From assembly GCA_023053545.1 (NCBI GenBank), contig JAKZAN010000005.1, positions 12,586,001 through 12,650,000 of the forward strand: a DNA stretch of 64,000 nt, given 5' to 3'. Under the pieces are notes generated by a model, which was not told the DNA's origin, ran no database searches, and saw only the letters and a program-made list of their open reading frames with translations. This DNA is from Lepidurus packardi. Taxonomy: Eukaryota > Arthropoda > Branchiopoda > Notostraca > Triopsidae. Numbering within the stretch: the first letter of the stretch is position 1; the number at the start of each line of letters is the position of its first letter. The translations under genes were made by a program, and so were the position numbers. This document shows positions 5,359 to 49,863 of this stretch, in pieces.

Positions 5359-8300
5359 GTGCGCATGCCTTTGTTGCGCACGATGAGCATGGAACAACGC
5401 TGGCAGGATTTGGCGAATTTGTTAAGCATTCCTGGACCGGATGCGGCAGCGGCTGCCGCAGCAGCGAGCCACGCCCATCACTCGCATCACCATCATCATC
5501 ATCACCATTTGGGCCACGCCTCCCACTCCCATTTCGCGCATCCTTACGCCCCGCATCATGCCCATCACACCCCTGCCTTGCATAACTCCTCCCATGCCCA
5601 TGCTGCCCACGCCCACTTGGCCAGTCATTCCTTGAGTCATCACCATTATGGACCCGCGGGACACCACGCCTACACGGGAGTGTACCCGACCGATACCACG
5701 CCCAACCACCGCTCGGTTTTGCTACAAAACGCGACCTTGGGACCGCCCATTGGGGATTTAGGAGCCAATGGCAGTTATCCTTCCTCTTCTTTAGGTAACA
5801 TCTTCAGATTTGTCTAGGGAGTTTCTTGAATTTGCTTTCGTAAGTCAGTTTTAAGCAGAATGTAACGTGAAAGTTGCGTTTACTTTACTCAGTGATACTT
5901 TTGGGGTATACTTGGCTAATTTAGTCGTTAAGATTGTTAAAATTTGGCTAAATTTAGCTAATTTTAGTCCTTGATATGGCTCATATTTGCCTAAATTTGG
6001 TTAATTTAAGCTTCTTTGAATGGGTAAGTTGTCCTTCCTCTGATAACATCAAGGTTAGGTAGGAAATTTCTTTAGTTTTCAATCTTCAGTCAGTTTTTGA
6101 ACGTTGAAACTTTGAACGTTTTAGAACAGTGAAAGTTGCGTTTACTTTACTCAGTGATACTTTTGTGGTATACTTGGCTAATTTAGTCGTTAAGATTGTT
6201 AAAATTTGGCTAAATTTTACTAATTTTAGTCGTTGATATTGCTCATATTGGGCTAAATTTGGTTAATTTAATCTTTTTTGAATGGGTAAGTTGTCCTTCC
6301 TCTGCTTTCCATAACATCAAGGTTAGGTAGGAAAAAAATTTCTTTAGTTTAGGAGCCAATGGCAGTTATCCTTCCTCTTCCTTAGGTAACATCTTCCTAT
6401 TTTTGTAGGGAGTTTCTTGAATTTGCTTTCGTAAGTCAGGTTTAAGTAGAATGTAACGTGAAAGTTGCGTTTACTTTACTCAGTGATACTTTTGGGGTAT
6501 ACTTGGCTAATTTAGTCGTTAAGATTGTTAAAATTGGGCTAAATTTTACTAATTTTAGTCGTTGATATTGCTCATATTGGGCTAAATTTGGTTAATTTAA
6601 TCTTTTTTGAATGGGTAAGTTGTCCTTCCTCTGCTTTCGATAACATCAAGGTTAGGTAGGAAATTTCTTTAGTTTTCAATTAGTTTTTCAGTCAGTTTTT
6701 GAACAGAATTTAAGTTTGAATTTAAATTTAAGGGAAATTAAGTTTGTAGAACTTTTTGTGTATATTTTTCTAAGAGTTTTGGTTATTTTTAAATCGTTTT
6801 TGGTAGGATCGGCGGTGAGTCTTGGATCTGCTGTGACCACTTCCATGAATTTGACCAATAGCACTGAAAGTGTGGATGTCCATCCCAACAATGCCTACAA
6901 GATGGAAGGAACGTCAGATTTGCTTTATTACCCGGTAAATTGTCTTTCTTGTCTTTAAAAAAAAAATTGAAAATTGAAAAAATTAAAAATTCTTTGAAAA
7001 TCAAACAATTCTGGAATTTTCATTGATTTGTAGTTTAGGAATTATGAATTTTCTGAAATTTTCTAAAATTATGAATTTTCATTTCTTTTGTATTGTTCTG
7101 TCACTAGAATACCAATGGAGAGGTGAACCAGACTTCAGATGGCTTTTTGTCCTCGATTCTCAATGATGAAGACTTGCAGTTGATGGATATCGCCATGAAC
7201 GACAGTAAATTTCTAAGAAAATTGATACAAATCTGAAATAAGATGGTATTAATTCCCATTCTGTTCACGTATTCTCGCCAGGCATGTACAGTATGCGCAT
7301 GATGGATAATAATGGGCCATCCAACAACCATACCACCCATTCAGGCCACATCCATGGTCACTCAGTTCACGCCCATAATGCGTCTCAAAGCCACAGTGTT
7401 TCCGAAGAAGCCACTTCAGATAGTGGCCACCCCCATACGCCTCATACCCCCGTTTCTTCCAGCATTTCCGATAACGATTGGGTTACGTTAGACAATTCCA
7501 CTTCGGATACTAACGCTACGGAGCAAGGCTATATGGAAAGCTATGCAACGGGGTAACAATTTGGGGCTTTTTTGAGTGGATTTTGAGCTTTTTTAAGTCA
7601 TTTTAAGCGGAAAATTTATGAAAAATTGGGTTCTTCGCAGGGGAAAGTACCGGCCATACGATTACTATGCTCGTCAAGGTGCTAATGTGGTGAATCCGGA
7701 CGGAAGTCATGGGCGAGTGGCCCAAAAGAAGCACCACATGTTCGGCAAACGTTCGTTTCAAGAACCTGGAACTCGTAAGATGAATAAACTCTTGTTTAAA
7801 CCGATTGGAAGCGAATTCAAACGTTCTATTTGTATTTTGGTTTAGCTGTGGACATCCATGGAGCCATTGCACCCTTGCCAATACCTGTTCCAGCTGCTCA
7901 TGCGTCGAATACCAGTAGCCATAAGTACGATTACAGCCAAGGCGCGCAGGGATATGATGGAAGTCAAGGTGCAACTGCCTTGCATCCTCCCATGGAGATG
8001 AAATATGGTTGTGGAATGGACTTTTCTCACCATCCTCATGGTAATATCAACGTTTATTCCCTTTGTGTTGAATCATTGGGTGTACATTGTGTCTTTCGTG
8101 CAGAGGTACGTGGGACAATGGATTCTTTGCATCATAATCATACGTATTCCATGCCACCGGAAGCTGCAGCTTCCCACAGACCGCTAGCGCGAGATAAAGC
8201 TCGAAGTAATGGATAAAACTTCCAGGAAATTGACTGATTTGTTTTGTGTTAATGAACTAGATTCGAATGCAAGTATGAGGGCTGCGAATGCTGCTGCAGC

Positions 8301-9026
8301 GGCTGTACAAGCAGCTGCCGCAGCAGCTGCTGCGGATGCCGAAGCTGCTTCCAGAGATGAGAAGAGGGCGTTAGCGATGAATATTCCCATTTCGGTGGAA
8401 GATGTCATCAATCTCCCCATGGATGAGTTTAACGAACGACTTTCCAAGTATGAATTGAGTGAAGCGCAGTTGTCCTTGATCCGGGACATTCGACGTCGAG
8501 GAAAGAACAAGGTTTGTGTTCAAAAGAAACGCTGTAAGAGGAATTTGAGTTCAAAGATGGGAATTTGTAGGTTGCAGCTCAAAATTGTCGTAAAAGGAAA
8601 TTGGATCAGATTCTCAGCTTAGCTGATGAAGTGAAACGTGTGCGAGAACGAAAGCAGCGTTTGATACGCGAGCAAGAGTTCTTGTTAGCCGAGAAAGGAC
8701 GCGTGAAGGACAAATTTGCCAAATTTTACACCCATGTCTTTCAGGTAAACCAAAGAAAAAGGTTTGATGCTTCGTTTAGGAGCAGTTGTACATGTTTGGG
8801 AACTTAGGCTTTGCGTGACACTGAAGGAAGGCCTTATTCAGCTTACGAGTACAGTTTGCAGTTGTCGGCTGATGGAAATATCTTGGTTGTTCCGCGTAGT
8901 TCAACTGCGTCCCAAGTTTCTCATCAGAACCAGCAAGCTGTGACTGGACGTGTGGAAGGCGAGACTGGATCGTCAGACATCAGTCAAGGTGTCCGAAGAA
9001 AAGTGCAAGAGCATAAGGATTTGTGA
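5359..9026 (+). CDS. cnc: cap'n'collar, CNC-type bZIP transcription factor (ten exons; 5' end may be incomplete)
   Basis: Arthropod orthologue of NRF1/NRF2, a nuclear factor that dimerises with small Maf. In flies it acts in head patterning and stress response. Exons are 5359-5794, 6807-6934, 7108-7204, 7282-7552, 7641-7774, 7846-8040, 8104-8205, 8261-8511, 8571-8744 and 8808-9026. All junctions are GT-AG with matching phases (1,0,1,2,1,1,1,0,0), and the lengths sum to 2007 nt. Visible parts: an N-terminal [12 protein letters not shown] motif, Ala and His runs, [15 protein letters not shown], the CNC domain ([20 protein letters not shown]), basic region [10 protein letters not shown] with a leucine zipper, and a C-terminal [15 protein letters not shown] block. 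The first exon follows an acceptor, so a longer isoform may start upstream; otherwise ATG at 5365, 5383 or 5389 is available. From 5365 the product is 666 residues. It converges on lab. Confidence 0.95.
5757..6690 (+). repeat. Intron-1 tandem duplication that copies the tail of the preceding cnc exon
   Basis: A unit with the block GTGAAAGTTGCGTTTACTTT occurs three times, at about 5868, 6129 and 6459. The first copy (from 5757) and third (from about 6348) include the last 38 bases of the coding exon, with one synonymous change, and its GTAACATC donor. The middle copy lacks that part. The rest is intronic, with repeated phrases such as TTAGTCGTTAAGATTGTTAA. Confidence 0.9.
8261..8511 (+). CDS. 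cnc: cnc exon 8: alanine-rich linker and CNC domain
   Basis: The exon enters in phase 1 after a 55-bp intron. It encodes an alanine-rich run, then [19 protein letters not shown], then the CNC signature [20 protein letters not shown], ending at the start of the basic region (RRRGKNK). The Drosophila protein has almost the same block. The donor is GTTTGT, weaker than the other cnc donors. Confidence 0.95.
8571..8744 (+). CDS. cnc: cnc exon 9: basic region and leucine zipper
   Basis: Phase-0 exon of 58 codons opening with [15 protein letters not shown], the DNA-contacting helix of CNC-bZIP proteins. A zipper with Leu/Val heptads follows, then [11 protein letters not shown]. It joins exon 10 ([18 protein letters not shown]), which matches the conserved C-terminal extension of arthropod CNC proteins. 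Confidence 0.95.
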
Positions 9027-9659
9027 GGGAGCCAAACTCCGGCTGCGTATTATAGCATCAGATTCTAGAGGCTTGTGTAAGTCTTTGAAGGTGATAGTTT
9101 TGGCAAAGGGAAAAGGATTTCAAGCTCGTACAAGTGCCTCTTTTGATCAGCTGATCGTGACTTTAATTTTCCTTGCATTTCGTTCGTCTAATACTGCATA
9201 GAAGTCTGAAACCCCGTAGTTGATTCTAAATTACGAAGCTTTTCCTTCGACTAGTTTTGTACAAATGGGGGTTGGTGTCATGCGCAACCTTGTACAAAGA
9301 ACTATATACCATATGGTAGTGAGCCAGTATTTTGCATCTAAATATGTGGAGACGAGAACTTCATTAAGCTTCTTATATGATTCAGAGGGAATATATGGCA
9401 TTTCCTGGGGCTTAGATTCCATGTTACAAAATAGCCGATTGTGCTTAATTGGTGATTATAATATTAGTTTTCCAAGTTAGGTGTATGTGCTAGGAAATTA
9501 ATTTGATTCCGGTGATTTCAGAGTGAATACTTGTATTTGTTATACATTTTGTACATGTTCAAACTAGGGGTTCTCTTATTAATCAAGCACCTTAAGCGGT
9601 TTCTTTATTTTCATGATTTGTTTCATTTGTTTTGAATTTATTCTATTTAAAACAAACGG

Positions 9660-9940
9660 TTTCAGTAGCCGTACGTCCTCATTGGCCCATTTGAAGCGCC
9701 CAGTTCAAAAGCCGTCACGCTGATTAGCCAAGGCACCGCGAGGCTTCCCTTAGGACCCGCTGGAGGCTCTCGATTGACGCCATTTTTCCCCCGGGACTCG
9801 AGACAATGAGACGTGTTGTCGTTTTCGTGAATTTAAATTGCGGAATTAGCAAAGCTAGTGTTAATTATGTGAGATTATTTTTCTCCGACTGCGACTTTCA
9901 TATCCCCGTAATTTTTGTGAAAATCGAGTGAGGGTAAGTC
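9660..9940 (+). promoter_or_regulatory. GC-rich promoter-like segment ending in a strong splice donor (tentative)
   Basis: In otherwise AT-rich DNA this segment is GC-rich. It has two inverted CCAAT-like elements (CATTGGCCC near 9678, GATTAGCCAAGG near 9722). At 9931-9939 it has AGG/GTAAGT, an almost ideal plus-strand 5' splice site (cut after 9933). It could be the promoter and noncoding first exon of an unannotated transcript. No coding exon is visible downstream, so this is inference. Confidence 0.25.
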
Positions 9941-9946
9941 TATTTA

Positions 9947-9952
9947 AATAAA
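9947..9952 (+). terminator. Possible cnc polyadenylation signal
   Basis: AATAAA about 920 bases after the cnc stop codon is the first canonical hexamer I can find on the plus strand. The 3' end is not otherwise defined by sequence, and a variant hexamer closer to the stop could be used. Confidence 0.25.
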
Positions 9953-10138
9953 ACTTTGAGAAACTTTCTATTGTCTCCTTTTTGGCGCCAAAAGTAATTT
10001 TTTTCTAAACTACAGGGCAGTTTATACATGAGTTTCTCGGTTTCTCTCGACGAAACATCTCGCTTTGAGCAGAATTCAGAGTGAAATTTTTTTTAGTGAT
10101 TTTTGGTGTAAATTTTGCAAATCTAATTTTTGTTTAAA

Positions 10139-10392
10139 CAGCGTGAGCATTTGCTCTTGGCTGCTTTACCTAATCGTTGATGTTGTTAATAGTTTTAAAT
10201 TTTGTAAACTGAAATTTTTGAATTTTTAAAAAATTTAAAAACTTTAAAAATTGTGCATTTAAATTTAAGAAATTTTTTTATTTTTTTAAAAAAACATATA
10301 CACAGCGTGAGCATTTGCTCGTGGCTGGTTAATGTTGATGTTGCTGATTAATGCTAATCGTTGATGTTGTTAATGGTTTGAAATATTGTAAA
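10139..10392. repeat. Direct repeat beginning CAGCGTGAGCATTTGCTC
   Basis: A block of about 70-90 bases starts at 10139 and again at 10303. It runs from CAGCGTGAGCATTTGCTC through CTAATCGTTGATGTTGTTAAT to a T-rich end. The second copy has a short insertion built from the same GTTGATGTTG phrase. A related segment (ATTTAAATAAA ... GGCGCC) occurs near 9943 and near 10657, so the surroundings of the cnc exon relic have been duplicated more than once. Confidence 0.8.
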
Positions 10393-10457
10393 AATGCTTT
10401 TTTAATTTAAACAAAATATTAAGGAATTTTGCTTTTTTAATTGTTTTTAATTGGTAG

Positions 10458-10570
10458 GATCGGCGGTGAGTCTTAGACCTGCGGTGACTACATCCATGAA
10501 TTTGACGAGTACTACCGAAAGTATGGATGCTTTTAAGATGTAAGGAGCTGCAGATTTGCTTCATTACCCG
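10458..10570 (+). pseudogene. Decayed duplicate of cnc exon 2
   Basis: This is a 113-bp copy of the 128-bp cnc exon at 6807-6934, still bounded by GGTAG/GATCGG and CCCG/GTAAATTGTC. It reads [17 protein letters not shown]..., then TESMDAFKM, a TAA stop, then GAADLLHYP. Against the parent it has one in-frame 15-nt deletion and one GAA-to-TAA change. Many of the other differences are synonymous. The flanking intron sequence is also related (GTAAATTGTC and a T/A-rich tail), so this was a DNA-level duplication and not a retrocopy. It lies 1.4 kb beyond the cnc stop on the same strand. Confidence 0.9.
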
Positions 10571-11363
10571 GTAAATTGTCCTTAATTTCTTTTTAAAAAA
10601 AAGTTTTAGAAATTGCAGACAAATTTCCCTTGCAAAATTCCGGTAATAGTTAGGTCGATTTAAATAAACCTTTTAGACACTTTCTGGGCGCCTTTTAGCG
10701 CCCAAAATGCTTCCACAATCCACGTGCGGTTTGTTATTGTTTACAATTGAGCCACGCCCTCAAGTTGACGTCCCTCTGACACTCGGTTTTTTCGCTACGA
10801 ATTACTGCAGGAAGCCTAGTAATTAATTAATCTTAATATGAATAATAAAATAAAAATTATAAATTAAATAATACAGACAAACTAAATAAAATAACATTTT
10901 AAATTAATTTTAATATAAGCAATTAATATGAAAAGAACGTAATTTTTCGTTAAAGAAAGGAATGGATAATTAACAATAAAAGGAATTTACGTAGTTATCG
11001 ATAGTGTCGTATATCGGCAACAATGAGCCTTGTCGGTTGTTTTTCGGAAAACTTTTTTTTTTTTTTTTAATTCCCAGAATTCTTTTCTTGCCTTTTTTTC
11101 GGGCTCTTCAAACACGTGACGTTGTGTTTGAAAGAGTGAAAAAAAATCTTGAGTACAGATATGCAATAAACGGCAACAATGCAAGCTATTTGTAGCCGAA
11201 CTCGTTCGGTTATGGAAGTTTATATAGGTTATGGGCCGAACCTTGCTCCGTCGTGATTTGAATGCTCACCTTTGTTTCAACACTCAAAAGGAAATGTGTA
11301 CCGAACACGATGCGGTATACCACTATTGTTAAAAATTAACTTTCCGAATTTAAAATGGTTGTA

Positions 11364-11436
11364 CTTCTGGTTAGAAAGTGGATTCATAAGGCTTGTTCAC
11401 TACAGTCCACCGCTCTACCAACTGAGCTACCAGAGG
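11364..11436 (-). pseudogene. tRNA-Tyr-like relic (5' half well preserved)
   Basis: On the minus strand from 11436 the sequence reads CCTCTGG, then GGTAGCTCAGTTGGTAGAGC (canonical A box and D arm), then GTGGACTGTAG with a GTA anticodon. A 16-nt intron-like insert follows, then ATCCAC closing the anticodon stem. The expected TTCGANNC loop and B box are absent. CCAGAAG at 11364-11370 could pair with the acceptor strand at six of seven positions. I read it as a truncated tRNA-Tyr gene or tRNA-derived relic. Confidence 0.6.
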
Positions 11437-12267
11437 ATGAAATTCATAAGCACGCTGGAACGTTTGGGGATAGAAGTACCAGCTTTGGACACTAGAGGGC
11501 AGAGGAGTCAGTTATTTGGCGGCCATTGGATATGTCCTGCGGGTGAGAGCGGTCACAGCAATGGGACTTGGCCATGTAATTAGAATTTTTTCTTTCCCGC
11601 CTGCTGCGGCCCCGCTTTGTGAGGAAAGGGAGGAAAGGCAAAGTTTGGCAATTATAGACTGTAACAGCCGAAGTGATGGATCACCCTGAAAACGGCAGTC
11701 TGCGGCCAAAGTGGTGGCCTTTCGTGCTCAACCAGACGCTACACAGTCTGCTGGTTTGATTCTCAACAATTGCTAGTTTCCCCCCTGAAAAACTCTCTGT
11801 ACTCAAAATTAGGGGGAGGGGGTTTGGTTCGTTTTGGAACCCCCTCCAATCAGAACTCGGCACAACCTTCAAATTAAAATTGTAAAAAAAAAAATAGATA
11901 TCTACCTTCCATCCTCCGGGCCGCCATTTTGGGAGTATCTGAAAATTGCTGGCAACAACTACGACGCAGTATAAGATGACGCACGGAATACATCCATTAA
12001 ATGCGTTGCTCCGAGGGAAACATGTTACTAGCCCGGATATTGAAGCTTTTTGTCTCATCATATGCGTAATTTTGTATTTCTTTTTCTTCTAAATTTTTTG
12101 GTTTCGTTTAGGGCAGAAGAAAGAACGCTCGAAACAAAGGTCGTGTTATGAAAGTTTTCAAGAATTTCAGTTCCGGTTCTACGAGTCGGGCGCTTCCCTA
12201 CGTCTTCATATGCTCGGCGTGTACGCTTGATAGGATGATGTGTCGCGCGAGCCAGGCAGATATCTGG

Positions 12268-12296
12268 CATTCTGGAGAGAGAGAGAGGAAAAGAGA
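12268..12296. promoter_or_regulatory. GAGA-type stretch
   Basis: An alternating GA run (GGAGAGAGAGAGAGG, then AAAAGAG) lies in the cnc-lab intergenic region. GAGA factor binds such repeats in arthropods and often marks promoters or Polycomb elements. No gene start is visible beside it, so a function is only possible. Confidence 0.25.
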
Positions 12297-12417
12297 ATCT
12301 AAGGCGAGGTCTGCACATTGAATTGTGGCAGCTCGTTCGTCATCCCCACGTCGAACTTGTGTGTCGCCGGTCCTGGGAGACACGAGAATGACAGAGCTGT
12401 GAGATATACAATTTTGA

Positions 12418-12444
12418 TTTTTTTTTTTTTTTTTTTTTTTTTTT
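12418..12444. repeat. Poly-T run of 27 bases
   Basis: An uninterrupted thymidine run lies in intergenic DNA. It could be the tail of an old retroposed element on the minus strand, but no body is recognised. Confidence 0.85.
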
Positions 12445-12982
12445 ATGAATTTTGTTCTATGATATTTGGATTGGCCGCGTGCCTCTTTTGACACTTGGAC
12501 ATAAGTCGAGCCTCTTAATTTTTTTTTTTCGAATTTTTCTAGTGGTGTCGCCTTACCCTTATAGGAGATGGTGTGTACCCAAGATGAGCACGGGAATGCG
12601 CGTTGAAGCCGACTTCAGACACTGGAAAGTAAATGTGTGATAAGAAAGCTTACTTTTTATTGAAAAAGTTTGAATAATGTTATTTTTACAGTTCTTTTTA
12701 AAGTTTTTTAGTTTTTTATAGTTATTTTTAAAGTTTTTTACAGTTATTTTTAAAGTTTTTAAAGTTATTTTTACTCAGCTGTTTAGGTTTAATTAAAAAG
12801 AAATTCCGCTCGTTTATTTTGAATCTTAAACTTGAATTTTCTTCCGAGCTTTGGGTAGATTCAGGTTTCAAAGATTCGCAGATTCGAAGAAAAGAATAGA
12901 TAAATTCGAAGAAAAAATAGATAAAAAAATATCGCTCAATTTTTCGAGTGATCCAAAACACAACGAAAAGACACAAGAAAGC

Positions 12983-13013
12983 TTAGATCGCTCGTTTATT
13001 GCGAGCGATCTAA
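12983..13013. repeat. Perfect 12-bp hairpin with 7-nt loop
   Basis: TTAGATCGCTCG and CGAGCGATCTAA flank the loop TTTATTG. A degenerate version, ATCGCTC ... TCGAGTGAT, lies just upstream near 12931. Both are followed by GAAAAG-ACAAGAAAG-like sequence, so the hairpin is part of a unit of about 60 bp present twice. Confidence 0.85.
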
Positions 13014-13129
13014 AAGCAAAAACAAAATGAAAAGGTACAAGAAAGTGTCTAAACTGGAGGAAAAAGTGACAAAAGTGCTCGTTGTGTTTTGTCTAGTTAT
13101 TAAGAAGAATTGGAATGTTCGGGAGTTGT

Positions 13130-13325
13130 ATAGCCTTGCAAAGAAAATGAATTTGTACAATGCTTGGGATTTTTCTGGATTTACTTTTTGCCGCTTGAGT
13201 TTTGATCGCCGCAGTTCGGCCGAACTGCGGCGAGCAAAAATCACGAGGCAGAAAAAAAAATCCCAAAAGGAAATGCTGAGTGCGCTGAAGAAAACGAAAA
13301 CGAAGCTTCCTTTGCGAAGCTGACA
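13130..13325. repeat. Long inverted repeat with a near-perfect 40-bp centre
   Basis: The arms meet without a spacer between 13219 and 13220. The 28 bases at 13206-13233 are a perfect palindrome (TCGCCGCAGTTCGG and its complement). Allowing one mismatch it spans 13200-13239. Weaker complementarity continues outward (TGCCGCTTGAG against CTCGTGA...GCA, and CTTGGGATTTTTC against its diverged complement), to about 13140 and 13300. It may be a fold-back element or a young local inversion duplication. Confidence 0.8.
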
Positions 13326-14237
13326 GGCCCAAATGACGAATCGGTTTGACCATTAACCCCTACGACAATCGCCAACGTATAGATTCCGTGTACTCGGGAA
13401 CGTACACTGTAAGCAATAATAGGCCCAAGACGAGAGCGACGACGAGGTTTGGTTAGAGGCTTTTATAACGTGGAACAATGGGACTGTTTGGTTATTGTTG
13501 CTCAGAATTGGGTGTGAACAGCAAAAGGGAAAGAATTTCCCTAGCTTGAAGATTTTCAGAATTTCTCGAAAGTTTTTCAATGGAAGATTTGAAAAAATCG
13601 GAAAAATTTTGAATGTGGTTCAGAAATTGAACCATCGATGAAAATGAATAATAAACACAAAAGAGCTGCTGGCTTGATAAATATCACTTGTAATAGACAC
13701 GGTCAAGGACAGGAGTATTTGGTTTGTTTTCGCCAAGAGTATTTACAGATCAAAAGTTGTATATCATTTATATATATCATTAACGACCCGAATATTGCAT
13801 CCACACTGGCTCTATCTTGCGGTAATGCTGAAGATTTTGTTCCAAATTTTTTCTTATTTTATTAATCTTATCTTGTCTCCTTTTCCCGTAGGTTGTCACT
13901 GTAACACGTTAATGAGGACGCCATGTTTGCGGAAATCTCTTAATCTTTGTTTGGTATCATCGAATAGTCCTTTTTCGAATAATTTCTTTTTCTTCAGGGT
14001 ATATGCCAATGATTTCGTGGAATGTGAACCGAGCTTAAACTAAGGGCGGGACTTGCACACAATTTTAGCGGAAAAAAGTTGAAGTCTTTTTGATTTTGGT
14101 CGTAATCTGCTGATTAAGACTGGGCCAAAATTTTGCAAGATTCGCCCGTTTTATTTTTGATTTTTTTGGCGCTTTTTCCTTGTTCACTCCACGATAACTC
14201 GTTATTCATCAAAAAACACAATATGCCTTTTTTTGTA

Positions 14238-14243
14238 TTTATT
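14238..14243 (-). terminator. lab: Possible lab polyadenylation signal
   Basis: AATAAA on the minus strand lies 476 bases beyond the lab stop codon. It is the first canonical hexamer I see downstream. A second candidate lies near 14150. Confidence 0.35.
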
Positions 14244-14718
14244 TTTATGTTAAAATTTGAATCCCTGAGTAGGTACGGTTCAAATTCGATGCCCGTGCAT
14301 TCGCCAAAAGTTTTCTTGAGGTATTTTTTTATTTTTGCGATTTGGGGGGAGGAGGAATTCTAAAAGTAGAGATGGAAACAAACACTATGGGAGAGTTTGG
14401 GAGGTTTTGTGTGTGACTTTCTGCGGAAAACGCCTTGAAAGACGACCCCATCCAGATTAGGAATTCTTCGTCGGGATTTTTTTTTTGCCCAAATGAGTTT
14501 TCCCTTTGACACAGCAGGCGTGGGCGGGGTCAGCTCTAACTCATTGAAGGAGAGTAGTTTTCGCAAACCCTGGTTTCGCGCATGCACTATGCTATATAGT
14601 AAGCCTCCTTATGGCGAACGTTTTGACGGTTGTATCCAACGCCGGGTTCTTTGGTATATGACACACATTTCTTGACAATTCATTGTTGTTTTTCGGTTGG
14701 GAAGGAAGGAGTCACGAA

Positions 14719-15140
14719 TCATTGGGGAGTTGGAGGCGATTCACTTTTGGTGGGAGGGCCTCCGCTGTTGCCACTTTCGGAATCGGTGACGGGCGACGGC
14801 GCGCCAGGCGAAGTCGATAGAGTTGGTTCCGGAGGGATGAGACCTTCTTTCATGCGCTTCTTTTGCTTCATGCGCCGGTTCTGGAACCAGATTTTCACTT
14901 GCGTCTCATTGAGTTGCAAAGCGGCTGCGATTTCGATGCGCCGAGCCCGCGTCAGGTATTTGTTGAAATGGAATTCCTTTTCCAACTCGGTCAGTTGCTT
15001 GGTGGTGAAGTTGGTGCGGCCGGTATTGTTGGGACCCAAGCCGCCGCCGTTGGTTCCTAAGCCGCCACCACCAGGACTTCCATTGCCGCCTAAACCACCC
15101 GAATTGGGGCTGCCGCCGTAGCTATAATCCGGTCTAGGAG
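14719..15140 (-). CDS. lab: lab exon 2 (homeobox)
   Basis: The acceptor ATAATTAG precedes CTCCTAGACCGG. The exon begins [10 protein letters not shown], runs through a Gly/Asn linker into the homeodomain, and ends with a Pro/Ser-rich tail and TGA at 14721-14719. The homeodomain has no internal intron. Confidence 0.97.
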
Positions 15141-18100
15141 CTAATTATAAGAAGAAAAAAAACGTTTTAGCGAAGATGCACTTGAATATGGTTCAATGGA
15201 AAGCTTTCGAAGACATTTCCTGTTGGGAATTGGAAAGAATAATGTGTTTTATAGCTGCTTAATTGAGGAACTTTAGAAAGAGAAGACTTGATTGAGATGG
15301 AATCTTCTCTTTCTAAATTTAATCAGGGATTTAGGAAGTTATTTTTGCGAGTGTGAAGCGAGTTTTGTTGTTGTTTTGGATTGATAAGGAGATTGGGGCG
15401 TTTGAGTTGCTATACTTGTGACTTTTTGACAATGGATAAGTGAAATGCGACGTACAGGCATGAGAGATGAGTCCCTAGGGATCGGTTGCATCTTGACACA
15501 AGGGAAAACGAGGGAATTTTTCTCTAAATGTAACGTTTTCTTCCGAAAGGAAGCAAGATTTCGCCATCTCTATGCGTGTTTAAAACCAAAACCTAAGATT
15601 CTATCTCATTCGTTAGCTTACTGAAGTTTAGCACTTCAACAGAAGACAGAAGATTACAAGTTTCGAACTAACTGTTTACTGTAGTAAAGAAGTTTAGGAA
15701 TGGAAGATCATTTGGTAGAACTTCTTATATCTTCACGAAGACCTAATATTCTAGCTTATAGAACCTTACTTCGTTAGCTACTTCGGTTCAAAAGAAGACA
15801 CAAGATTCCAAGTTTTGGACTAAACTGTTTCTGTATTAACGAAGCTATGAAATGGAAGTGTTTCTGAACACCTTGATTGTTTTGAAGACATTCTGTAACT
15901 TCGTGTAACCTGAGATTCTAGATCACCGAAGCTTACTCAAGTTTAACAACGTTAAATTCAAAAGCATACAAAAGATTCCATGGTTTGAACTAAACTGTTT
16001 CCATAATAACGAAGCTATGAAACGGTAGTGGCTCTGGACAACTTGATTGTTGTGTAGACGTTCAATAACTTGACGAAAACCTAACATTATACCTAATAAA
16101 AGCCTTACTTACGTTCAGCTACGTCAATTCAGAAGAAGTCCAAGGATTCCACGTTTTGAACGAACTGTTTCTGTGTTAACGAAGCCATGAAATGGAAGTG
16201 CTCCAGACAACTTGATCGTTTTGTAGACATTCTAGAACTTGATGAAAACCTAAGTTTCTATCTGATGAAGCTTACTTTAGTTACGTCAATTCAAAAGAAG
16301 TCAAAAGATTCCAAGTTTGAACTAAACTGTTACTGTAGTAAATCATAATTGCACGAAATTTTAGCTATTTTAGGTTTTTTTAAAGGAATGTTTAAGATAA
16401 AAAGTAAGGGAAATTATAAAAGAAGCTATAATCGTTTAATTAGACTACAACTGTTGAAAGACAAGTGCTTGTATAGCGTCTTCGGACGAAAGCTAATCTT
16501 CTGTATGTAGCTTCCACTTGGTTATTGTTGTCATCACTTTGATTGGATTCTGGCGATTGTTCTTTCTCAGCGAGTTTGGAGGGGGCTGGGTTGTATTGTG
16601 GAAAAACATCAGATATCTCTGTTAGTAAAAGCAAAGGGATATACATCCTTTTCATCCGTTCGGAAACGTTCGGAAACAGCCTCAACAACACAGGAAAAGG
16701 AAGGATGGGAAAAAGGACCAGGGACAACCCAAAATGCAAATGTAGCTCTATAGCTAGACTATGCATGCTGCTTGGATGCTGCAAAGCGCATAGGACCCTT
16801 TTCTGGTGTAACATATACGAAGCTTCGGCCATGTCCAACACAGTGATGGATGGGGCTGGATCTGTGAAGACGAAAACTTTTGCCAGCAAATTTCCCCCCT
16901 TGTGCCCCTCTTCTTCCCAAGGCCCGGAATCGAGTTCTCCGAAACTATTTTAAAGTTCAAACTTGTAATTTTTACTTTAAAATTGAATCCATTTCCATTC
17001 ACATGCAAAAGAAAAAAAAGAGCTTAACAGGATAAACTTGAACTAAACGAATTTCCATAAGCAAGAGACCGAACATGGAACAATGGCAACTCTGGGAAGT
17101 AATTCTAGAAAACGGAAATAGACCTACGGAAACGTATTTCGGTTAGAAAATGTGGCAAAAATGGAAGGCCGACGGTATAGAGGTTATATAGTGTGGAACA
17201 CTCTTGGAATTCTTGGAATTTTTCAGTTCTCTTCGTTATCGCGAGTTTTCGACGACGTGGAACGGGACAACAGGCTCTGAATAGAAAGGCAGGCTCGAAA
17301 ATTTCTGCTCAAGCGACATGTCGCGATAAGATAAAAGGTTCTATGAGGCTGGGAAACTAGTTTTTTTTCTGCCTGAAAGGGTGAAAGACAAGTTTTTTTC
17401 TTGTTAGCTCGTGTGCTTCTTTCGTTAGTTGGCTCTTCTTCGGTAGCTCACTCTCGTATTTAAAAAAATAAATAAATAAATCGAACGAAAATGGGGATAT
17501 TTGTTTATGAATCTGTCTGGGCAAAATGGCGTCCGTCCGATCAGGTTTTTACTATTGCTCGAGTTCAATATTGACTCGCGATCGTTTTCGTCCGGGGGGA
17601 GACTGAAGGGAGCCAAAAACAAAGTCTTAGTGGTATAAAGGCTTCCCAAAAAGCTTTCACCGCCTAAAAAAAGGCTGCGGGACTCTCTTTGCTCAGGATC
17701 AAGTGACGCAGGTCTGAGAGTTTTAGCAGTAAGCAAAACAACCGTTCTGCCTATGAAAGACGCATATGATACGTTTGTTGATCTTCGCTTTGCTTTTGTA
17801 CCTTTTCTCATTAGCTTGCCCGAAAAAACTTGTAGGTTGCCCAACAAATTCCGCATAAATGCTAAGGAGTTGCAAGTTTCTATGTTAGAGTTGATCTATA
17901 GTTTGAGTAGAAAGAATATTTTGCAAGTCATGGGATGTTTTCGGTTCCTTTAGGGAATGCTTAGTAGCGTTTAAGTGAGGAAGATTAGGGAAAACATGGG
18001 TGGCTTTTGGATAACAATTGACAAATTTCCACTATGGTGGGGTCGTGTTTTCAACCCATTGTTGACCACTATGCTGTCTTCGGAACAAGCTAAACGAGCT

Positions 18101-21100
18101 TGCTTGAATGCCTTGTCCCAACATAGTCCCAACATAGCACCTTGTTGCCGCCTTGTTGTAAGGGATCTGATTAATGATGCAGTGATGAAAAATGAACCCG
18201 ACGGTTGTGGTTGTTTGGTTTGGAAGCCAAGTCCAAGCCATCGGACTTGGGTGCTGTTTAGGAAAAAAATCTGTTCAAGTGGGCATTGGTCAAAGTGTCA
18301 AAGGCTCTTGAATTGTGGTATTGACTCATGCTTCGCGAGTTTTCTTAAGCATTTTTTGGGGGGTTTGAGGAGTTTAGGGTACGTGGGTGGCTAATTGAGG
18401 TAGCCTGCTGAGTAGCTAAAAAGGCTAAAATGTCGCGTACCGCCGTTTTGGTTAAATGGGTTTAGGATAAGGATTTCTGGAAAAGGATTTAGGATAAATT
18501 AATGACTGGAAAAACGCAAAGGAGGTTTCCTGGGAGCTGTTTTGAGTTAATGAGTGAAGTTGGAGACATCATGGGTTGAGGACAGCAAAGGGTTTTGACT
18601 TGAAAGGTTCTTAACGTTTTGCGTCGATAGGAAGCAGGTTCTTTGGGGACTGGTTGGGATGAAAGAGTTTTGTGTCGGGGAACTTGTTCATCCGTCAGAC
18701 TTGCGAAAAGATGTGTAAGAGAGTTTAAGGGGGAAGAGAAAAGAGAGAGCTTTTGAGTGATGGAAATGAATGACATAACGTTTGTTCACGGCTACTTTCC
18801 GTTGCCAGGATCTTATTTCGGATAGGTTCTAAGGTTAAGAAGTTGTTATGGTGGACCGTTGAAATATTGGACGGGGACATGTATACATAAGCCAAGATTA
18901 TGCTGTTAAATAGCAAAACCTTCGCTATTGAGTTTGCTTCAGTGACAAAGTTGCAAGGTTTTTGAACCTCATTAATAAGATTTACTGAAACTACGTATTT
19001 ACCTAAACTTGTTGCAATGTTTTCTTAGTGAATTCTTGGACTCTGTTTGGGAAAGTTGGGATTGGTTTCGGTTACGGTGAAAGGTTTTAAACTTGATTGC
19101 GAGTCAGTTTACATGCATTTTTGGAGATGGGATTATATAGGGATTCTATTGGTTGAATGCATTGACCCTTGTTCGTAAGATTTGGATATCGAACATTGAG
19201 AGGTTCTGAAATTGAGCTGAAGATGAGTTCAAGTGATAGATCGAAAGATGATGATCGAGATTCAAATGGAATTTTGCCATTTTGTCGTGACCCTATGAAG
19301 ATTGATATGTTCTCAAAGAAAGCTACATTGAATCTTAGAATCTTACGGATTTAAACAAAAAAGAAGGGTGATCTTAATCTTATGGAAGAGATATGCGAAA
19401 ACGGCTACATTCACTTGAAAAATTGGGTTTAGGGATCGTGTGTATTAATTCTTACAGAAAGTTAAACTAAAGCTCAGTTTGGCGAGTGATTTACGGAGAA
19501 TTGCATCCGAATTTCAGACAGGATTTTCCGCAAAGATCAAGTGAGATTCTAATGATGTTTATTGTGAAACCTGAAGTTTTTACCATGTTTAAAGCCTGGT
19601 CAACATCTGTCAGTCAGAGCTATCATCTGATCTTGTTTATAATCAAGTGGATTTTTAGCCAATTTGGGCAGTTTGGAACAACCAAAGAAAAACACCAAAT
19701 TTTGGTTGGAAAGAATACGTTTTTATCTACCCTGAATTTCGCTTCTTCTACCTTTCAAGTGCAAACCGTATACAGTGCTTATCTTATATACTCTTCGTTG
19801 AAAATTAAATGAAAATACGTTGCCAAATTGTGCGAGATATAGATAGTTCTGTTTCTTTTTTTATTTTTTTTTTTAGTTTCTCGAAATGGTAAACTTTTTA
19901 CTACGAAGGTCTTGAAGAAGGGCGATGGCTCGAACGAAGATTCGAACCATGGTTGAACGAAGGTCGATGGTTCAGTGTTGGTGTAAGAAAACGAAAAAGT
20001 AAGGCCTGGGTTAAACGACGAATAGAACACTAATTAATGGAACTTGCCCTATCAAGCAGCAAACTACAGTTTTGCTAGGGATTTGTTTACTGTTATTTGA
20101 TCTGTTATTAGTGTTTCTGCTCGTGCTTCAGAAGCTAGTAGGAGTATCATTGTTGTCGTTGGGTGGAAGAAAGTTTGTGAAAGGAGAGAGTAAGGAAAAT
20201 AGGATTGTTACAGTACCTGGCTTGGGTACGTTGCGTTTGACTTGCATCCATTTGTACGTGGGTACGCTGGGTTGCACCGGGTTCAACGGGGGCTGTCCAT
20301 TGTTGCCCAGGACTCCTGGCTGATGAGGATGGCTATGAGGGTTATGCGAGCCCGGGAAGTGATGGCCGCCAAGTTGGTGGTGGTGTGAATGAAGACTTTG
20401 TGCAGGGTGATGATGGTGATGATGCGAGTGCAGGCCGGTCAGCCCCAGCATCCCGTTCACGTTAACTTGACCACATTGTTCGCGGAGCACAGCCGCCGCC
20501 GGATAAGCCGCTGCATAGCTGCCTGGTATGGTTGACGGCGGCGGGTTAGGATTCAGGGTTCTGACGACCGATGGTTGGACATGCTGGGGAACACCATAAT
20601 CCTGAGCCACCGCGTGGTGGTAGCCATAACCCACTGACACAGCATTGTTGCCAGATGCTACGCTAGTTGATCCAATCTCTTGCAGATTGCTGAAATGATG
20701 ATGCGGATGTTGCTGGTGAAGAAGATGGTGACTACCAACAAAGTCTTGACTACCCACCCCTCCGCCGCCGTATCCACCTGAGTTGCTGCTGACTATCGAT
20801 GGAGCATTATTGCCCGGTACGGGACTGCCACCGGGCCCAGACACATTGTTGCCGAGACTGGATTGCTGCATATGATGATGGTGATGAAGGTGATGCTGTT
20901 GATGCGGGTGGTAATAGTTGGTCGAGTCGAGGTTCGTGTAAGACAGTTCTTGGGGATTCAATTGCTGTTGTTGCTGCTGCTGCTGTTGCGAGTCATGCGG
21001 AGTTAAAGGAGGCGTCCTTGGGTCCGGCAAAGGTAGCAAATGATTCGTAGGACTGGACAAGTAGTGCGAGACATTGTTGGAATCGGGTGGCGTCCCGGCC

Positions 21101-21270
21101 ACCACTGATGAGGAACTTACATTGTTGGGAACCGAACTCACTCCAGCATAGTAGACGGCTGCGGCGGCGGCAGCCGGGCCAAGGTGGTCAGTTGTGCCGC
21201 CGTATGTATTATAACCGCCCGTATCTGTCCCACACACACCGTACATCACGTTGGCATTCATGGCCATCAT
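14719..21270 (-). CDS. lab: labial, Hox1-class homeodomain protein (two exons)
   Basis: Most anterior Hox transcription factor of arthropods, acting in the nucleus with Extradenticle and Homothorax. Exons are 21270-20217 and 15140-14719, joined in phase 1 to give 491 residues. The N-terminus ([12 protein letters not shown]) fits labial. Exon 1 is rich in His, Gly and Asn, with a nine-residue Gln run and several His runs. The labial-type hexapeptide [14 protein letters not shown] (about 338-351) ends exon 1. Exon 2 has a Gly-rich linker and the homeodomain (about 389-448) with [20 protein letters not shown] and [14 protein letters not shown], the labial signature. It ends [10 protein letters not shown] chose ATG 21270; ATG 21267 and 21261 are in frame. 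pb follows upstream on the same strand, and cnc converges from the other side. Confidence 0.97.
15590..16345. repeat. Satellite array in the lab intron, unit about 155-170 bp, five copies
   Basis: The phrase AACTGTTTCTGT or close variants recurs at about 15668, 15822, 15992, 16160 and 16320. It is accompanied by ordered shared phrases: CCTAAGATTCTA, GAAGCTTACTT, GTCAATTCAAAAGAAG, GATTCCAAGTTT, AACGAAGCTATGAAATGG and ACAACTTGATTGTTTTG. Copies are diverged but collinear, so this is an old local array. Confidence 0.85.
16844..16853 (+). promoter_or_regulatory. lab: Candidate Labial-Exd (Hox/PBC) autoregulatory site
   Basis: TGATGGATGG matches the bipartite Hox1-PBC sequence known from labial and Hoxb1 autoregulatory enhancers. 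It lies inside the lab intron, 3.4 kb past the end of exon 1. No Homothorax/Meis TGACAG motif is directly adjacent. One ten-base match can be chance; its position makes it worth listing. Confidence 0.35.
20217..21270 (-). CDS. lab: lab exon 1 (activation region and hexapeptide)
   Basis: 351 codons plus one base, from [11 protein letters not shown] to NVPKP. The donor reads CCAG/GTACTG on the minus strand. Low-complexity parts are AAAAAA near the start, a CAG/CAA-coded Gln run (about 20970-20995) and many CAT/CAC His codons. These make length variation between alleles likely. Confidence 0.95.
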
Positions 21271-35348: not shown

Positions 35349-35880
35349 CGTTTTACTTACAAATCTGAACTTGCCGAGAGAAAAAGAAAAAAAATCATAT
35401 TATTTTCTAAGTTTAAAACCGGTTCGTCAGGGCAAAAAAATAAAATAAAAAATAGGAAAAAAATAGCTACCCGAAGACTGCTAGCAGCTGCTTCGAAATT
35501 TGCCATTTGCCACACATTTCCTTTGCATGTAAAATTTCGTGCAAAGAATTTAAGCGCCGGACTGCTGCCAAAAGCGCAAATAAATGAAACACTGGGGGAA
35601 AAAATGGAAAACGAGAGAAGATGGAGATAGGGTTGGTAGTTTTTGTGTAATTTTGTAAATTTGAATTTCGATTTTCAAAAAATTCTCCAGAAAAAAAAGA
35701 AAATAATGGAATTTTTGAACAAGAATTTGGACTGTGCTGGAATGGACCACACGGTTGACGTGTCGTATATTTGTGTTAATGTACAGGTCAAATTAAGACG
35801 TTTTACTTACAAATCTGAACTGGCCGAGAGAAAAGGAAAAAAAAAATCATAGTATTTTCAAAGTTTAAAACCGGTTCGTC
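35349..35880. repeat. 82-bp direct repeat flanking about 370 bp
   Basis: GTTTTACTTACAAATCTGAA begins both copies (35349 and 35799), which run to AGTTTAAAACCGGTTCGTC. They differ by a few substitutions and A-run length. The DNA between is ordinary AT-rich sequence. It could be a local duplication or the ends of a small element; nothing between them supports the latter. Confidence 0.8.
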
Positions 35881-35993: not shown

Positions 35994-37762
35994 CTAAGCT
36001 AGCTCGTAGTAGTCAGAAATGTCACCAGCTAGACTGGTCAGGAAGTTAAACTCCGAGACGTCTTGGGGTGGCAGTAAAGGTTGGGCTGAAGCGGCTCCTC
36101 TGGTGACCGCAGCCGATTCCGACGACGAACACAGGTCGCCTTCGACTTCCACCGGGCTGAAACCGTTGAGGTGTTGAGGGTAGTTGCACTGTCCCGCTTG
36201 CGAGGGCTCGTGGCAGTGATAGTTCTGGTGGATGACACTCACGCTCACGTCGCTGCACACGCTGCTGGAGTCGGACAGACTGCCCGAGTGGTAGCAAGGG
36301 TCGGTTGGGTGGCAGTGCCCGAGGTTGCTGGTACTTTCGTGGTACGACAGTCCAGCGTACTTTTTATGGTCGTTGACGCAAAGAGGGTTGATTGAGGATG
36401 ACGATTCGGAGGGGGGAATGTTGGGGGTGTAGGCTCGGGTAGAGTAATGGGAATCATTGAAGTGGTGGAAATACTGGTCGTAGTGGGGGTTGTAAGGGGT
36501 TGAGTAGCTTTGTTGTTGCTGTAGTTGTGGCTGAGACGGATTCCCGCGAGGACTATGAGGGTTGTTGTAATTGTGGACGATCGACCCGAGGTTGTTTCGA
36601 GGTTGCGACTGCGTTTGACCGTAAGCGAAGTTGTCTGGCCAGTTTTTACTAGATTGGGAGGGCGGGTACGGTTGGGACGTGGTGGGTACCTGTTGGTAGT
36701 GGTTGCCGTTGAACCGCTGCCCCAGCGAGGTCCAGCTGACTCCGTAGTGCGGGTGCGTGGGCGGTAAAGTGCCCATCCGAGGGGAAGTACAACTATTGTG
36801 GACTCCGGCGGTGCTGGTACCGTAGTGCGGCGGGGGCTGGACATGGACTGGAGGTGGTTGCAAACTTCTTGACAAACTGGAATGTGTGGAGTATTTGCCA
36901 CCACCACCGGCAGGCCTATCCTCTTGGACTTGCAGGGAATCGTAGGCAGTAGGAGGACGCTGGTAGGTGGTCGGAACATCATGGTGCGAGGGTGGGCAGC
37001 AAGAAGAAGAGGTAGAGGGATGATTGTGATGATGGTAAGGCGGCCGAGCTGGGTTGAAACGTGAGAAGTACGGGTGGCTCTGCATTTGGTAGATGTTCGC
37101 ATCATTCGGGAAGGCTGTGAGTTCCGATTTGGGATGAATTTCCGGCGAAGATTTGGCAGTCGGATAGATGAGCGAAGAAGAATCGGCACCGGGCGTAGTA
37201 GTAGGAGGAGGAGGCAGGACCACTAGGTCAGCCGGAGGGTGAGACCACGGACTATCTGTAGTACTAAGCGTCTCGGTGCTGTCGGTGCTGCCGCAGGGAC
37301 TGTATGAGCCGCCTGAGTTGCTCCGCGGCGTCAAACCACCGCCACAGTGGTTGCTTTCGTCGGACGTGAGTTTGGCCGCACCACCGGGAAGGAGACCTAG
37401 AGGGGTGGACGCTCCCCCTGGGGTGTACATGCCTTGATCCAAGTTATTACTCGCCACCGAATGTTTGCTTGATGGTTCCTTGGTTTTGGATTTGATCCCG
37501 TGACTCGACGGAGACTTGACACTCTCGCTCCCACTGCCGGTATCATCGTCCTTCTTGGTTAGCGATTGACGCTTGTGCTTCATGCGACGGTTCTGGAACC
37601 ACACTTTGACCTGACGCTCCGTTAGGTCCAACGAGGCGGCGATCTCAATGCGCCGCGGGCGGCATAAATACTTGTTGAAATGGAATTCCTTTTCCAGTTC
37701 CAGTAACTGGGTATTGGTGTAGGCGGTCCGCAGTCGCCGCGGGAGTCCGTTTTCGGCTAATG
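35994..37762 (-). CDS. pb: pb exon 2 (homeobox and long C-terminal region)
   Basis: The acceptor AATTATAG precedes CATTAGCCGAAAACGG, completing the split codon as GCA (Ala). The homeodomain is uninterrupted. Downstream are a Lys/Ser patch, a Ser/Thr/Pro stretch with [17 protein letters not shown], His/Pro-rich segments and a short Gln run. The stop is TAG at 35996-35994. Confidence 0.97.
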
Positions 37763-40700
37763 CTATAATTCAGAATAAAAATGGAAAAAAAAATAGAAAT
37801 GAGTTTCAACGCCAGGCATCGAAAGAGGGAAGGCAGAGGTAACTGAACCTAATTTTTTTTTTAAAAATTTAAGTTTTGAGAAAATTCGAATTTTGGGTGT
37901 CGGCTTAATCCTTAGGGCGTCGGTTATACATTGCAGTCAAAGGATTTAGGGAAAGAGGTGTGTGAGGACTGTGAATAGTCTTACGCTTAGCATGAACATG
38001 ACGTTGAGCTTTTTTTTTGGACTTTTCAGATGCTGGTACTTTTATGTTTTTTCCCCTGGCGGTTGGTTAAATGGTTTAATTTTTTTTTGTTGGTCAAGTT
38101 TTAAGGCTTTGGGGAGACGTTTTTGGAATTAAGGTTCTCGCTTACGTTGGCGTTATATATTTATATCTGAGGTTGAAAGCAGAAGTCTCTTTTCGTTCGG
38201 TGTCATTTTTCTAAACCGGGGCAAGACAGTGTTGGAGATGGTGCAAGGGGGAGGCACAAGTGGCCATCTTGTGCTGTAAATAACGGGCGGCAACCAGCAG
38301 ACGGTTAGGGCTTGTGCTTTGAATGCGTTCCAGTTCTAAAGCCCCCGGTTTCCTTTCTAACTTCTAACGTCTTTTTTTTTTCATTGTTGACGTTGGGTAT
38401 TTGGTGGGGAGTTTTGGTTTCCCGGTAAAATGCCCAAAGCTTTGAGCATTTAGTGAGCAAGCCAGAGGGACTAAAAGCTTTGCCTCACGATTCTTGAATG
38501 ATTTTCTTAGCGCCTTCTCTATCTCTCTTGGGGGGAAACAAAATGGTTAGGTTGCTTTTTAGCTGGAATCTGGCGAGAAGAATGACTGCAGTTATTCCGA
38601 CCAAGTTTCTTTTTTCAAGGTTAAGTTTAAATTTTGAAAGGGATTGAAATTCAATTGAAGGAAGCGTGTCGGGGTATTTTATTTTTATTATTATTTATTT
38701 TTATTATTATTATTTTTACTGAAAAAAACTTCCAGCACACAATTTGAACTGTCCATTTTCATGGGTTCAAAAGTGAATATTACAGGCCATTAACTTCCGA
38801 GCAAAAATGTAAATTAGAAAATATGAGAAAATAGAGCGATACATCTAGTTTCTAGGGATATGTTGCTTGCCATCATGCGCCATGTAGGGATGAAGCTATT
38901 AAAGTAGGGGGATCAACCGTGAGCACGTTGACAAGCGCCCGCGACACGTTCGTGACGTCATACCGCAAATGTTCAATGCTAGTAACTCGAGAATAAAAAT
39001 GTCAACAAAGTGTGTCGTTCTTAAGAGTAGGATAGTCTACAAATAAAGAATCCACCCAAATCTCAGCATGTGAACATTTTGGTGGCTATTGACCCTTTTA
39101 AGATCCCCCGTGGGTCCAGCGATCCGGGGGGGAGGGTGGAAAGGGGCGTCGCTGGTTAAGGCAAAGTACATTGCAATTTCTGGCAATCGCTTTTGACAGT
39201 AATGTACGTATGTTCAATACGGAACAAGTGGCAGTCCAGGTTCTTATATATGTGAGCACAGTAATTAGTGACTTGCAAAATTAACTATGCACCTCTTGAA
39301 AACAGGGCAAATTTCTTGTTGTTTTGGCTCTAATCTATACCTAGACACATTTTATACCTCGAAAGGTTTCCTATTAGGGCTTGTGATTCCTTTATCTGTT
39401 GCGTAGTAAAATAACAGGGAACGTAGGTAATGTACGGTACTTTTAGTTTCATGTGCCATGTTTAGCACCTGCGCAGGTTTTTCTAGTGAGGCGAAACTGA
39501 CCTAGGCCATCACATCGTGTCCTTTTATCGGGAAAAGCGGGCCCAAGTTATGATTCGCTTTTAGTACCTTTCCTGCTGTGTTCTAACGGCTAAAGGTCGC
39601 CTACCAACACCAGAAGAACAAAACACCAATGATCGTGGATAATCGTAAGGATTATTTCGTTACAATCCGTCGATTCGAGCAAAACGATCCAAACCCATAT
39701 AGACCCATTCTAAAGAATTCTTTCAACACTTTGTAAATGATTTTAAACACTTTGAAGTGAATTCATTTTAAGAAGAAAAAAACGATTCAAGTAATTTCGA
39801 TCAAATATTTGGGTATTGATGGTTATTGACGGATAGAGAAGGACAGACCTAAATTATTACCGAAAATTACACGATAATCATTAATTCAGTTGATGTTCTT
39901 TGTGCTTTCTGTTGCAGAATGGTATCCGAAGAAGTTTTTTTAGGGATTTTTCCTACCAAAGATCAAACGACTACTAGAATGCTTAGGCTAAAGAACTTTT
40001 GTTCATTGTTGTCACATACCACCTGTTATAGCGTAGCTATACATTGTATACAGTACCGTTGTCGAATATCAAAGAGAAAAAAATAATAGTTAATCAAAAG
40101 TTTCCGAAATAAATTTGAATAAAAATGCTATCAAAATTCTTTTGTGTAATATTTAGAAATTAAGTCGTAAATAATTCCGCAAGATTCGTTAGATTTTACT
40201 ATCGAAAGATCGAAGAGAAAAAATTAATAATTAATAAAATTTTCCGAAATAAGTTTTATTCAAAATATTCTTACAATTATTTTGTATAATATTTAGAAAT
40301 TAATTACATAAAACTAGTCAAATTCAGGCAATAAAATTCGTAAAATTTAGGAAATAACTAAATATGCTCTTCAAATTATTTTGTATCGTATTTTCTCGCT
40401 TTTTTTAATTATCTTGTATCATTTTGTATTATTTCGAAATTAATTCGTGGAAAATTTAGTAAAGTTGATTCGCAAAAATTTAGGAAATAATTCTAAAATA
40501 GTCGTTAGATTTTATGGCGGAAATTATTGGAGGCATTTTTTTATTAGGTGGTGGCAGTGTTTCTTAGAACCATGACTGGTTTTTTAGCAAAAGATTCTCG
40601 AAATTTTCGTTCTGGCTGAACTCATGTCGTGTCGTGTCTTCCGGTCATCTGATTTGTGGATCAAGGGGAGGTCACTGGAAGGGGCTTTAATAGCGTGATC

Positions 40701-40905
40701 ACTTTTACGACATTACCGGGTTTTTCTGACCCCCAACGGGAAAGCGTTAACACAACTCTAACATGACATTTCTATTGGTTTCTATTTATTTTATTTAGTT
40801 TTATTTCATTTTTTGTGTATCTGAATGCCGCCAAACTTCTCATGTGTAAATCATCCGAGCTAAAGGAAGCTTAGAAAGAATGATACAAGTTTAGAACTTT
40901 GGCTA

Positions 40906-40944
<39 letters not shown>

Positions 40945-46018: not shown

Positions 46019-46054
<36 letters not shown>

Positions 46055-49490: not shown

Positions 49491-49509
49491 TTTTACTAGA
49501 ATTTATTTC

Positions 49510-49583
49510 CTTTCTTCCCAAACCAACGCTTGGTTCGTTTGGGTTGGATTGCCTTTCTTCCCAAACCAACGCTTGGTTCGTTT
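49510..49583. repeat. pb: 31-bp exact direct repeat, each copy containing a hairpin, in the pb leader
   Basis: The 31 bases at 49510-49540 recur exactly at 49553-49583, 43 bases apart. Each contains AACCAACGCTTGGTT, a 6-bp stem with a 3-nt loop. They lie 20-93 bases upstream of the pb start codon, so they should be in the leader RNA. Another duplication, TGATGATGTGGAAGTGTTGAA, lies just beyond (about 49624-49667). Confidence 0.85.
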
Positions 49584-49856
49584 ACTGCTCGTTTTCAAAT
49601 CCTGTCAATGTCGTGCTGACTTTTGATGATGTGGAAGTGTTGAATGATGATGTGGAAGTGTTGAAATGTGTCGAAGCGTTGGATGGGTTGGTTTTAATTG
49701 GGGAGTTTTGATCGGAATTGTGAAGGTGAGAGAGTGAAAGACTCGATTCCAGGGAATCACACTGAGAACCACCAAAAAATGGGGCAAGTCTTAGTTCCGA
49801 AAAAGGACTGTCAACACTGAGAACATAGTTAACACAGTTATGGGGGAACGGACGCG

Positions 49857-49863
49857 TTATATA
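49857..49863 (-). promoter_or_regulatory. pb: TATA element, possible pb promoter
   Basis: TATATAA followed by CGCG on the minus strand lies about 370 bases upstream of the pb start codon. An Inr-like TCAGTG lies at 49820-49815, somewhat further than the usual 25-35 bases. This is the best core-promoter match near pb, though start-site data would be needed. Confidence 0.3.

Follow-up and report, generated by a model that had tools for sequence, protein, structure and literature searches.

CNC-bZIP genes are neighbours of Hox clusters in vertebrates (here and below, published work is cited from parts of each paper). In a study of 14 Hox-linked vertebrate gene families, human NFE2-family genes were placed near all four Hox clusters (PMC2566581); zebrafish nrf1a and nrf1b are syntenic with the hoxb clusters (PMC3840143), and Nfe2 is among the Hox-linked genes in a cyclostome reconstruction (PMC10927551). 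In a cichlid, cbx5, hnrpa1 and nfe2 are located 3′ of HoxCa, and a HoxBb clone is listed with scap1 (stated to be 3′), snx11, cbx1, nfe2l1 and cdk5rap3, an order from which nfe2l1 apparently also lies on the 3′ side of that cluster (PMC2080641). Here we describe 64,000 nucleotides of the genome of the notostracan Lepidurus packardi (contig JAKZAN010000005.1, positions 12,586,001 to 12,650,000; hereafter, the window), in which the CNC-bZIP gene cnc converges on labial (lab, Hox1). The order and orientation are cnc(+) lab(−) pb(−), pb being proboscipedia (Hox2), and the CNC gene therefore stands outside the Hox1 end. We conclude that this pair probably (about 0.6) preserves an ancestral linkage between a CNC-bZIP gene and the Hox cluster at its anterior (Hox1) end, one that was already present in the common ancestor of arthropods and vertebrates. 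The conclusion rests on the identities and orientation of the genes, the position on the Hox1 side, the linkage of NFE2 genes and Hox clusters in vertebrates and the low chance of such an adjacency.

In the typical arthropod order, lab and pb are neighbours in one orientation (PMC12220506), as they are in the window. The lab–pb subcluster of Artemia is separated by about 11.7 Mb from the remaining Hox genes (PMC11492255). Strigamia has two cnc genes, cnc1 and cnc2, which are on different scaffolds, with no linkage to lab reported in the part of the paper cited, whereas cnc adjoins lab here (PMC4244043). The word cnc is absent from the main text of PMC4862073, PMC10914929, PMC12220506, PMC5111886 and PMC11492255, and no earlier report of cnc beside labial in an arthropod was present among the literature matches listed, a search with most subscription papers, figures and supplements outside its scope.

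A CNC-bZIP gene next to labial

The initial annotation of this DNA described a CNC-bZIP gene that converges on lab with 5.7 kb between the 3′ ends. This description stands: the two genes are tail to tail, with 5,692 bp from stop codon to stop codon, and their identities are borne out by matches in Pfam and PDB. The next recognisable gene outside lab is cnc, and pb is on the other side of lab.

The plus-strand gene was modelled with ten visible exons (Table 1), which join in a single frame of 668 amino acids up to a stop codon that ends at 9026. The introns are of the GT..AG type in 9 of the 9 cases modelled; the exon boundaries were chosen by visual inspection such that the frame remains open, and this count is thus not independent proof of the model. 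Pfam bZIP_Maf matches both the C-terminal 213 amino acids (E = 3.3e-22) and the whole visible protein (E = 2.8e-21), in which no other Pfam domain scores above its curated cut-off. The CNC domain lies directly before the bZIP basic region and the zipper is of the Maf type, as in CNC-bZIP proteins; the coding sequence is interrupted by an intron after the residues RGKNK of the basic region. In PDB, the C-terminal part matches NRF2 with 102.6 bits (7x5e, covering residues 30–118 of the 213-residue query), NF-E2 with 100.2 bits, BACH1 with 68.3 bits and SKN-1 with 46.9 bits, and the gene is closer to NRF/NF-E2 than to BACH. Identification as a BACH gene was rejected on the basis of these scores, and a retrocopy was rejected on account of the nine modelled introns. 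In Strigamia cnc1 and cnc2, the conserved domain is encoded by the last three exons (PMC4244043); the last three exons here likewise encode the CNC domain and the bZIP. Judged by its domains and closest structural matches, the gene is identified as cnc.

Outside the regions of known exons, 191 open reading frames (ORFs) that passed a complexity filter were scanned with Pfam, of which 78 were in the gap between cnc and lab or to the left of cnc (at least 50 amino acids in length) and 113 were elsewhere (length limit of 78 amino acids). Short exons could escape these scans owing to the length limit and the filter. A BTB domain was found neither in these 191 ORFs nor in the 668 visible amino acids of cnc, the N-terminal exons being beyond view.

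The initial annotation also called the cnc gene complete, a description that the evidence does not bear out. A splice acceptor precedes the first visible exon; no motif of the ETGE, ESGE or ETNE type was found on the plus strand up to 9026 (exons further upstream could be beyond the edge of the window); and Pfam gave no convincing match in the 35 ORFs to the left of cnc. The 5′ part of at least one cnc isoform is therefore outside the window, which extends only 5.4 kb beyond the first visible exon, or was missed. The N-terminal Keap1-binding motifs of the long isoform of the CncC/NRF2 type are DLG and ETGE. The sole DLG in the frame is part of GDLGAN, in the first visible exon, and was not counted as a Keap1 motif.

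The lab gene comprises two exons; its ATG is at 21270 and its stop codon at 14719, and its homeobox is uninterrupted in exon 2 (Pfam homeodomain, E = 2.8e-23). The homeodomain is of the Hox1 type: the best PDB match of the protein is HOXB1 (111.5 bits), followed among Hox proteins by Sex combs reduced (78.6 bits). Near the end of exon 1 is the hexapeptide YKWM, a form that we take to be typical of Hox1. Upstream of lab and in the same orientation, pb combines an exon that encodes YPWM with a Hox homeodomain (E = 6.4e-23), the latter in exon 2, which is long and ends at 35994; the splice ends of pb were assigned by visual inspection. The gene is labelled pb on account of a likeness that we assume, and a Hox2 chain is absent from the best 60 of the 65 PDB matches of the protein, the top match being Pdx1 (81.8 bits). 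Because pb is upstream of lab on the same strand, the two genes represent the anterior end of a Hox cluster. A lab homeobox without an intron, cnc introns of short length and a compact cluster would fit many arthropods. With the lab and pb proteins as tblastn queries, no third homeobox was detected in the window, and no Hox3 gene was found within 14.5 kb upstream of pb, where positions 49491–64000 contain no convincing gene. Possibly, as in Artemia, the two genes stand apart as a subcluster at a great distance from the other Hox genes.

The DNA between cnc and labial

Of the 78 ORFs scanned in the gap and to the left of cnc, 43 (at least 50 amino acids) are in the gap and the other 35 are the ORFs to the left of cnc; together they matched only two weak Pfam families (best E = 0.0063). 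The gap does hold a decayed copy of cnc exon 2 together with its edges, 1.4 kb past the cnc stop codon. The match scores 135 bits, compared with at most 36.5 bits in 30 dinucleotide-preserving shuffles of the gap. The relic has retained the AG and the GT at the splice positions but carries a 15-bp deletion and an in-frame stop, on the basis of which it was rejected as a working exon. It indicates that a portion of cnc was duplicated in the direction of lab and that the copy later decayed.

The relic therefore ties the gap to cnc up to 10.6 kb. Together with the absence of N bases from the window (0 in 64 kb), it speaks for a genuinely unbroken sequence that extends from cnc to 10.6 kb or beyond. 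The initial annotation had raised the concern that two scaffolds might be joined between 9 and 14 kb; for the first part of that interval, the relic and the absence of N bases speak against a join, whereas the DNA from 10.6 to 14.7 kb has no such tie, and it is there that an assembly join is conceivable.

Table 1 Coordinates of the genes and other features in the window
Feature	Positions	Strand	Details
labial (Hox1)	14719-21270	-	exon 1 21270-20217, exon 2 15140-14719, intron 5,076 bp
proboscipedia (Hox2)	35994-49490	-	exon 1 ~49490-49094 (YPWM), exon 2 ~37762-35994 (homeodomain)
cnc (CNC-bZIP), ten visible exons	5359-9026	+	exon model, 668-amino-acid frame, Pfam bZIP_Maf, PDB NRF2/NF-E2
cnc exons 1-5 (visible)	5359-5794, 6807-6934, 7108-7204, 7282-7552, 7641-7774	+	
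cnc exons 6-10 (visible)	7846-8040, 8104-8205, 8261-8511, 8571-8744, 8808-9026	+	
Last three cnc exons (CNC domain, basic region, zipper, C-terminus)	8261-9026	+	Pfam, PDB, exon model
Intra-intron duplication	6348-6704	+	cnc intron 1; 92.2% identical to 5757-6102
Gap between cnc and lab stop codons	9027-14718	.	5,692 bp, without a recognisable intact gene
Relic of cnc exon 2 and flanking edges (decayed copy)	10433-10602	+	blastn E = 1.4e-33 against 6786-6966, 75% identity over 185 columns

Origin of the arrangement

Under a simple model with 12,000–30,000 genes, the chance that one named gene is the next outside lab is about 3e-5 to 8e-5; for a gene that is already on the chromosome of lab, it is 5e-4 to 2e-3 (once in 500–2,000). 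Because the comparison is post hoc, and vertebrate Hox clusters have many linked families, we allowed after the fact for 15–20 such families, which raises the estimate to, roughly, nearer 1 in 1,000.

In human, each of the four CNC genes presumably lies on the HOX1 side of its cluster and points towards it. The initial annotation had linked the human NFE2-family genes to the four Hox clusters, which agrees with the published work, as does the placing of cnc at the Hox1 side: the CNC gene is outside the anterior Hox end in the linkage of NFE2, NFE2L1, NFE2L2 and NFE2L3 with vertebrate Hox clusters, as it is here, a position that is stated for cichlid HoxCa and inferred for HoxBb (PMC2080641). 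Common descent of the cnc–lab arrangement and the vertebrate NFE2–Hox linkage is the most likely explanation. A CNC gene would have been linked to the Hox1 side in the common ancestor of arthropods and vertebrates, and the linkage would have survived in this lineage most likely because a compact edge of the cluster was little rearranged. Regulatory sequences of lab or cnc may have helped, if they are located in or across the shared 3′ region, such that breaks there would be selected against.

Several observations weigh against this account or bear on it. Two or three genes stand between the CNC gene and the Hox cluster in the cichlid (PMC2080641), whereas the 5.7 kb here are without a recognisable intact gene; members of the Cbx, Hnrnpa and Skap families were not recognised in the gap, and the flank beyond the first visible cnc exon is just 5.4 kb in length. 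As the two cnc genes of Strigamia are on different scaffolds, at most one of them adjoins lab (PMC4244043). In insects, splits and moves have affected lab, pb, zen and Dfd most often (PMC10914929). Several local duplications at the cnc locus speak for some restlessness.

Alternatively, a rearrangement in this lineage may have joined cnc and lab secondarily, in which case the likeness to vertebrates would be a coincidence or would reflect linkage on the scale of the chromosome only. The cichlid intervening genes (scap1, snx11 and cbx1; cbx5 and hnrpa1) that are not recognised in the gap, the duplications around cnc and the frequency with which anterior Hox genes are split off in insects (PMC10914929) all favour such a juxtaposition; it requires, however, that cnc, among all genes, came to lie on the Hox1 side by chance, and we regard it as somewhat unlikely.

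The vertebrate data support linkage on the Hox1 side, not contact, because the cichlid clusters have two or three other genes in between. The two genes could have been in contact ancestrally, with vertebrates acquiring insertions afterwards, or intervening DNA could have been lost later in the lineage studied here. The initial annotation had gone further and suggested that direct adjacency itself predates the divergence of Bilateria; given the cichlid genes that intervene, none of which was recognised in the gap, we do not follow it on this point. A more far-reaching version holds that a CNC gene directly tail to tail with Hox1 was the bilaterian ground state and was kept by a regulatory interlock, that the intervening genes of vertebrates came later, and that the Hox regulatory domain ancestrally had its anterior boundary at this pair; we consider this unlikely.

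A related explanation concerns why the pair survives and is compatible with an ancestral linkage. Enhancers of lab or cnc might sit in the introns of the neighbouring gene or in the shared gap, and the old linkage would have been kept for that reason. A gap without a recognisable intact gene would suit this explanation, but cnc and lab of Drosophila, which we take to be on one arm, are presumably far apart, and we find it distinctly unlikely that such an interlock accounts for the pair. An assembly artefact that joins two places is very improbable: AT-rich tandem repeats at 4.6–5.35 kb and T runs near 11.05 kb and 12.42 kb are points at which an assembly may break down, but the continuity documented above, a GC skew that is positive throughout (+0.067 in cnc, +0.109 in the gap and +0.194 in the lab intron) and the fact that a chimaera would have to join exactly cnc and lab stand against it.

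The ancestral linkage of the CNC gene and the Hox1 end thus remains our preferred reading, and the cnc–lab pair is a new instance of a known linkage, with a geometry that is simpler than in the vertebrate cases compared.

Other features of the window

At 6353–6385, the duplication in cnc intron 1 (Table 1) repeats the final 33 bp of exon 1, with AG before this copy and GT after it. It is a possible in-frame cassette, which would add 11 residues if spliced in. Searches for relatives of cnc gave 16 pattern matches in viral contigs and 122 in contigs of prokaryotic genomes, of which 0 were confirmed in either set, as expected for an animal gene.

In the gap, positions 13171–13268 form a foldback with 49-nucleotide arms that are 78% complementary and have no spacer. 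As RNA (13160–13280), its folding energy is −52 kcal/mol (z = −5.85; 0 of 200 shuffles were as good), and its 14-bp core was found only in its two arms (up to 2 mismatches). It is probably a foldback element or an element similar to miniature inverted-repeat transposable elements. The lab intron contains a tandem array at 15711–16341 (170-bp units, 3.8 copies, 73% matches), and two copies of about 80 bp that are 92.7% identical (35349–35428 and 35799–35880) are located just past the pb stop codon.

Pfam matched three families among the 113 ORFs outside the gap and the flank to the left of cnc, with a best E of 0.00092 (ANGEL2_N, one ORF), and none was taken as a gene; an ORF at 63574–63957, which is without a Pfam match, was rejected as a gene. 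There were 0 Rfam matches at gathering scores and 0 tRNAs in the window.

The GC skew over positions 1–64000 is +0.121 (more G than C on the plus strand), and is positive in 58 of 64 one-kilobase windows and in 11 of 11 compartments (exons, introns, gaps and flanks), whatever the direction of the genes. For an animal nuclear genome, a skew that is this uniform across 64 kb is unusual; it might reflect the direction of replication.

Implications

CNC-bZIP factors act with small Maf proteins. The cnc gene described here would be expected to function like other CNC-bZIP factors and, as in mandibulates, to be active in the labrum and mandible; cnc is needed together with Dfd for the mandible (PMC3897911). 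If the cnc–lab pair is shared by other arthropods and by outgroups, it would establish what bordered the bilaterian Hox cluster on its anterior side and would provide a gene-order marker with which Hox clusters can be oriented. It would also place cnc, a gene that patterns the head, physically beside the Hox cluster.

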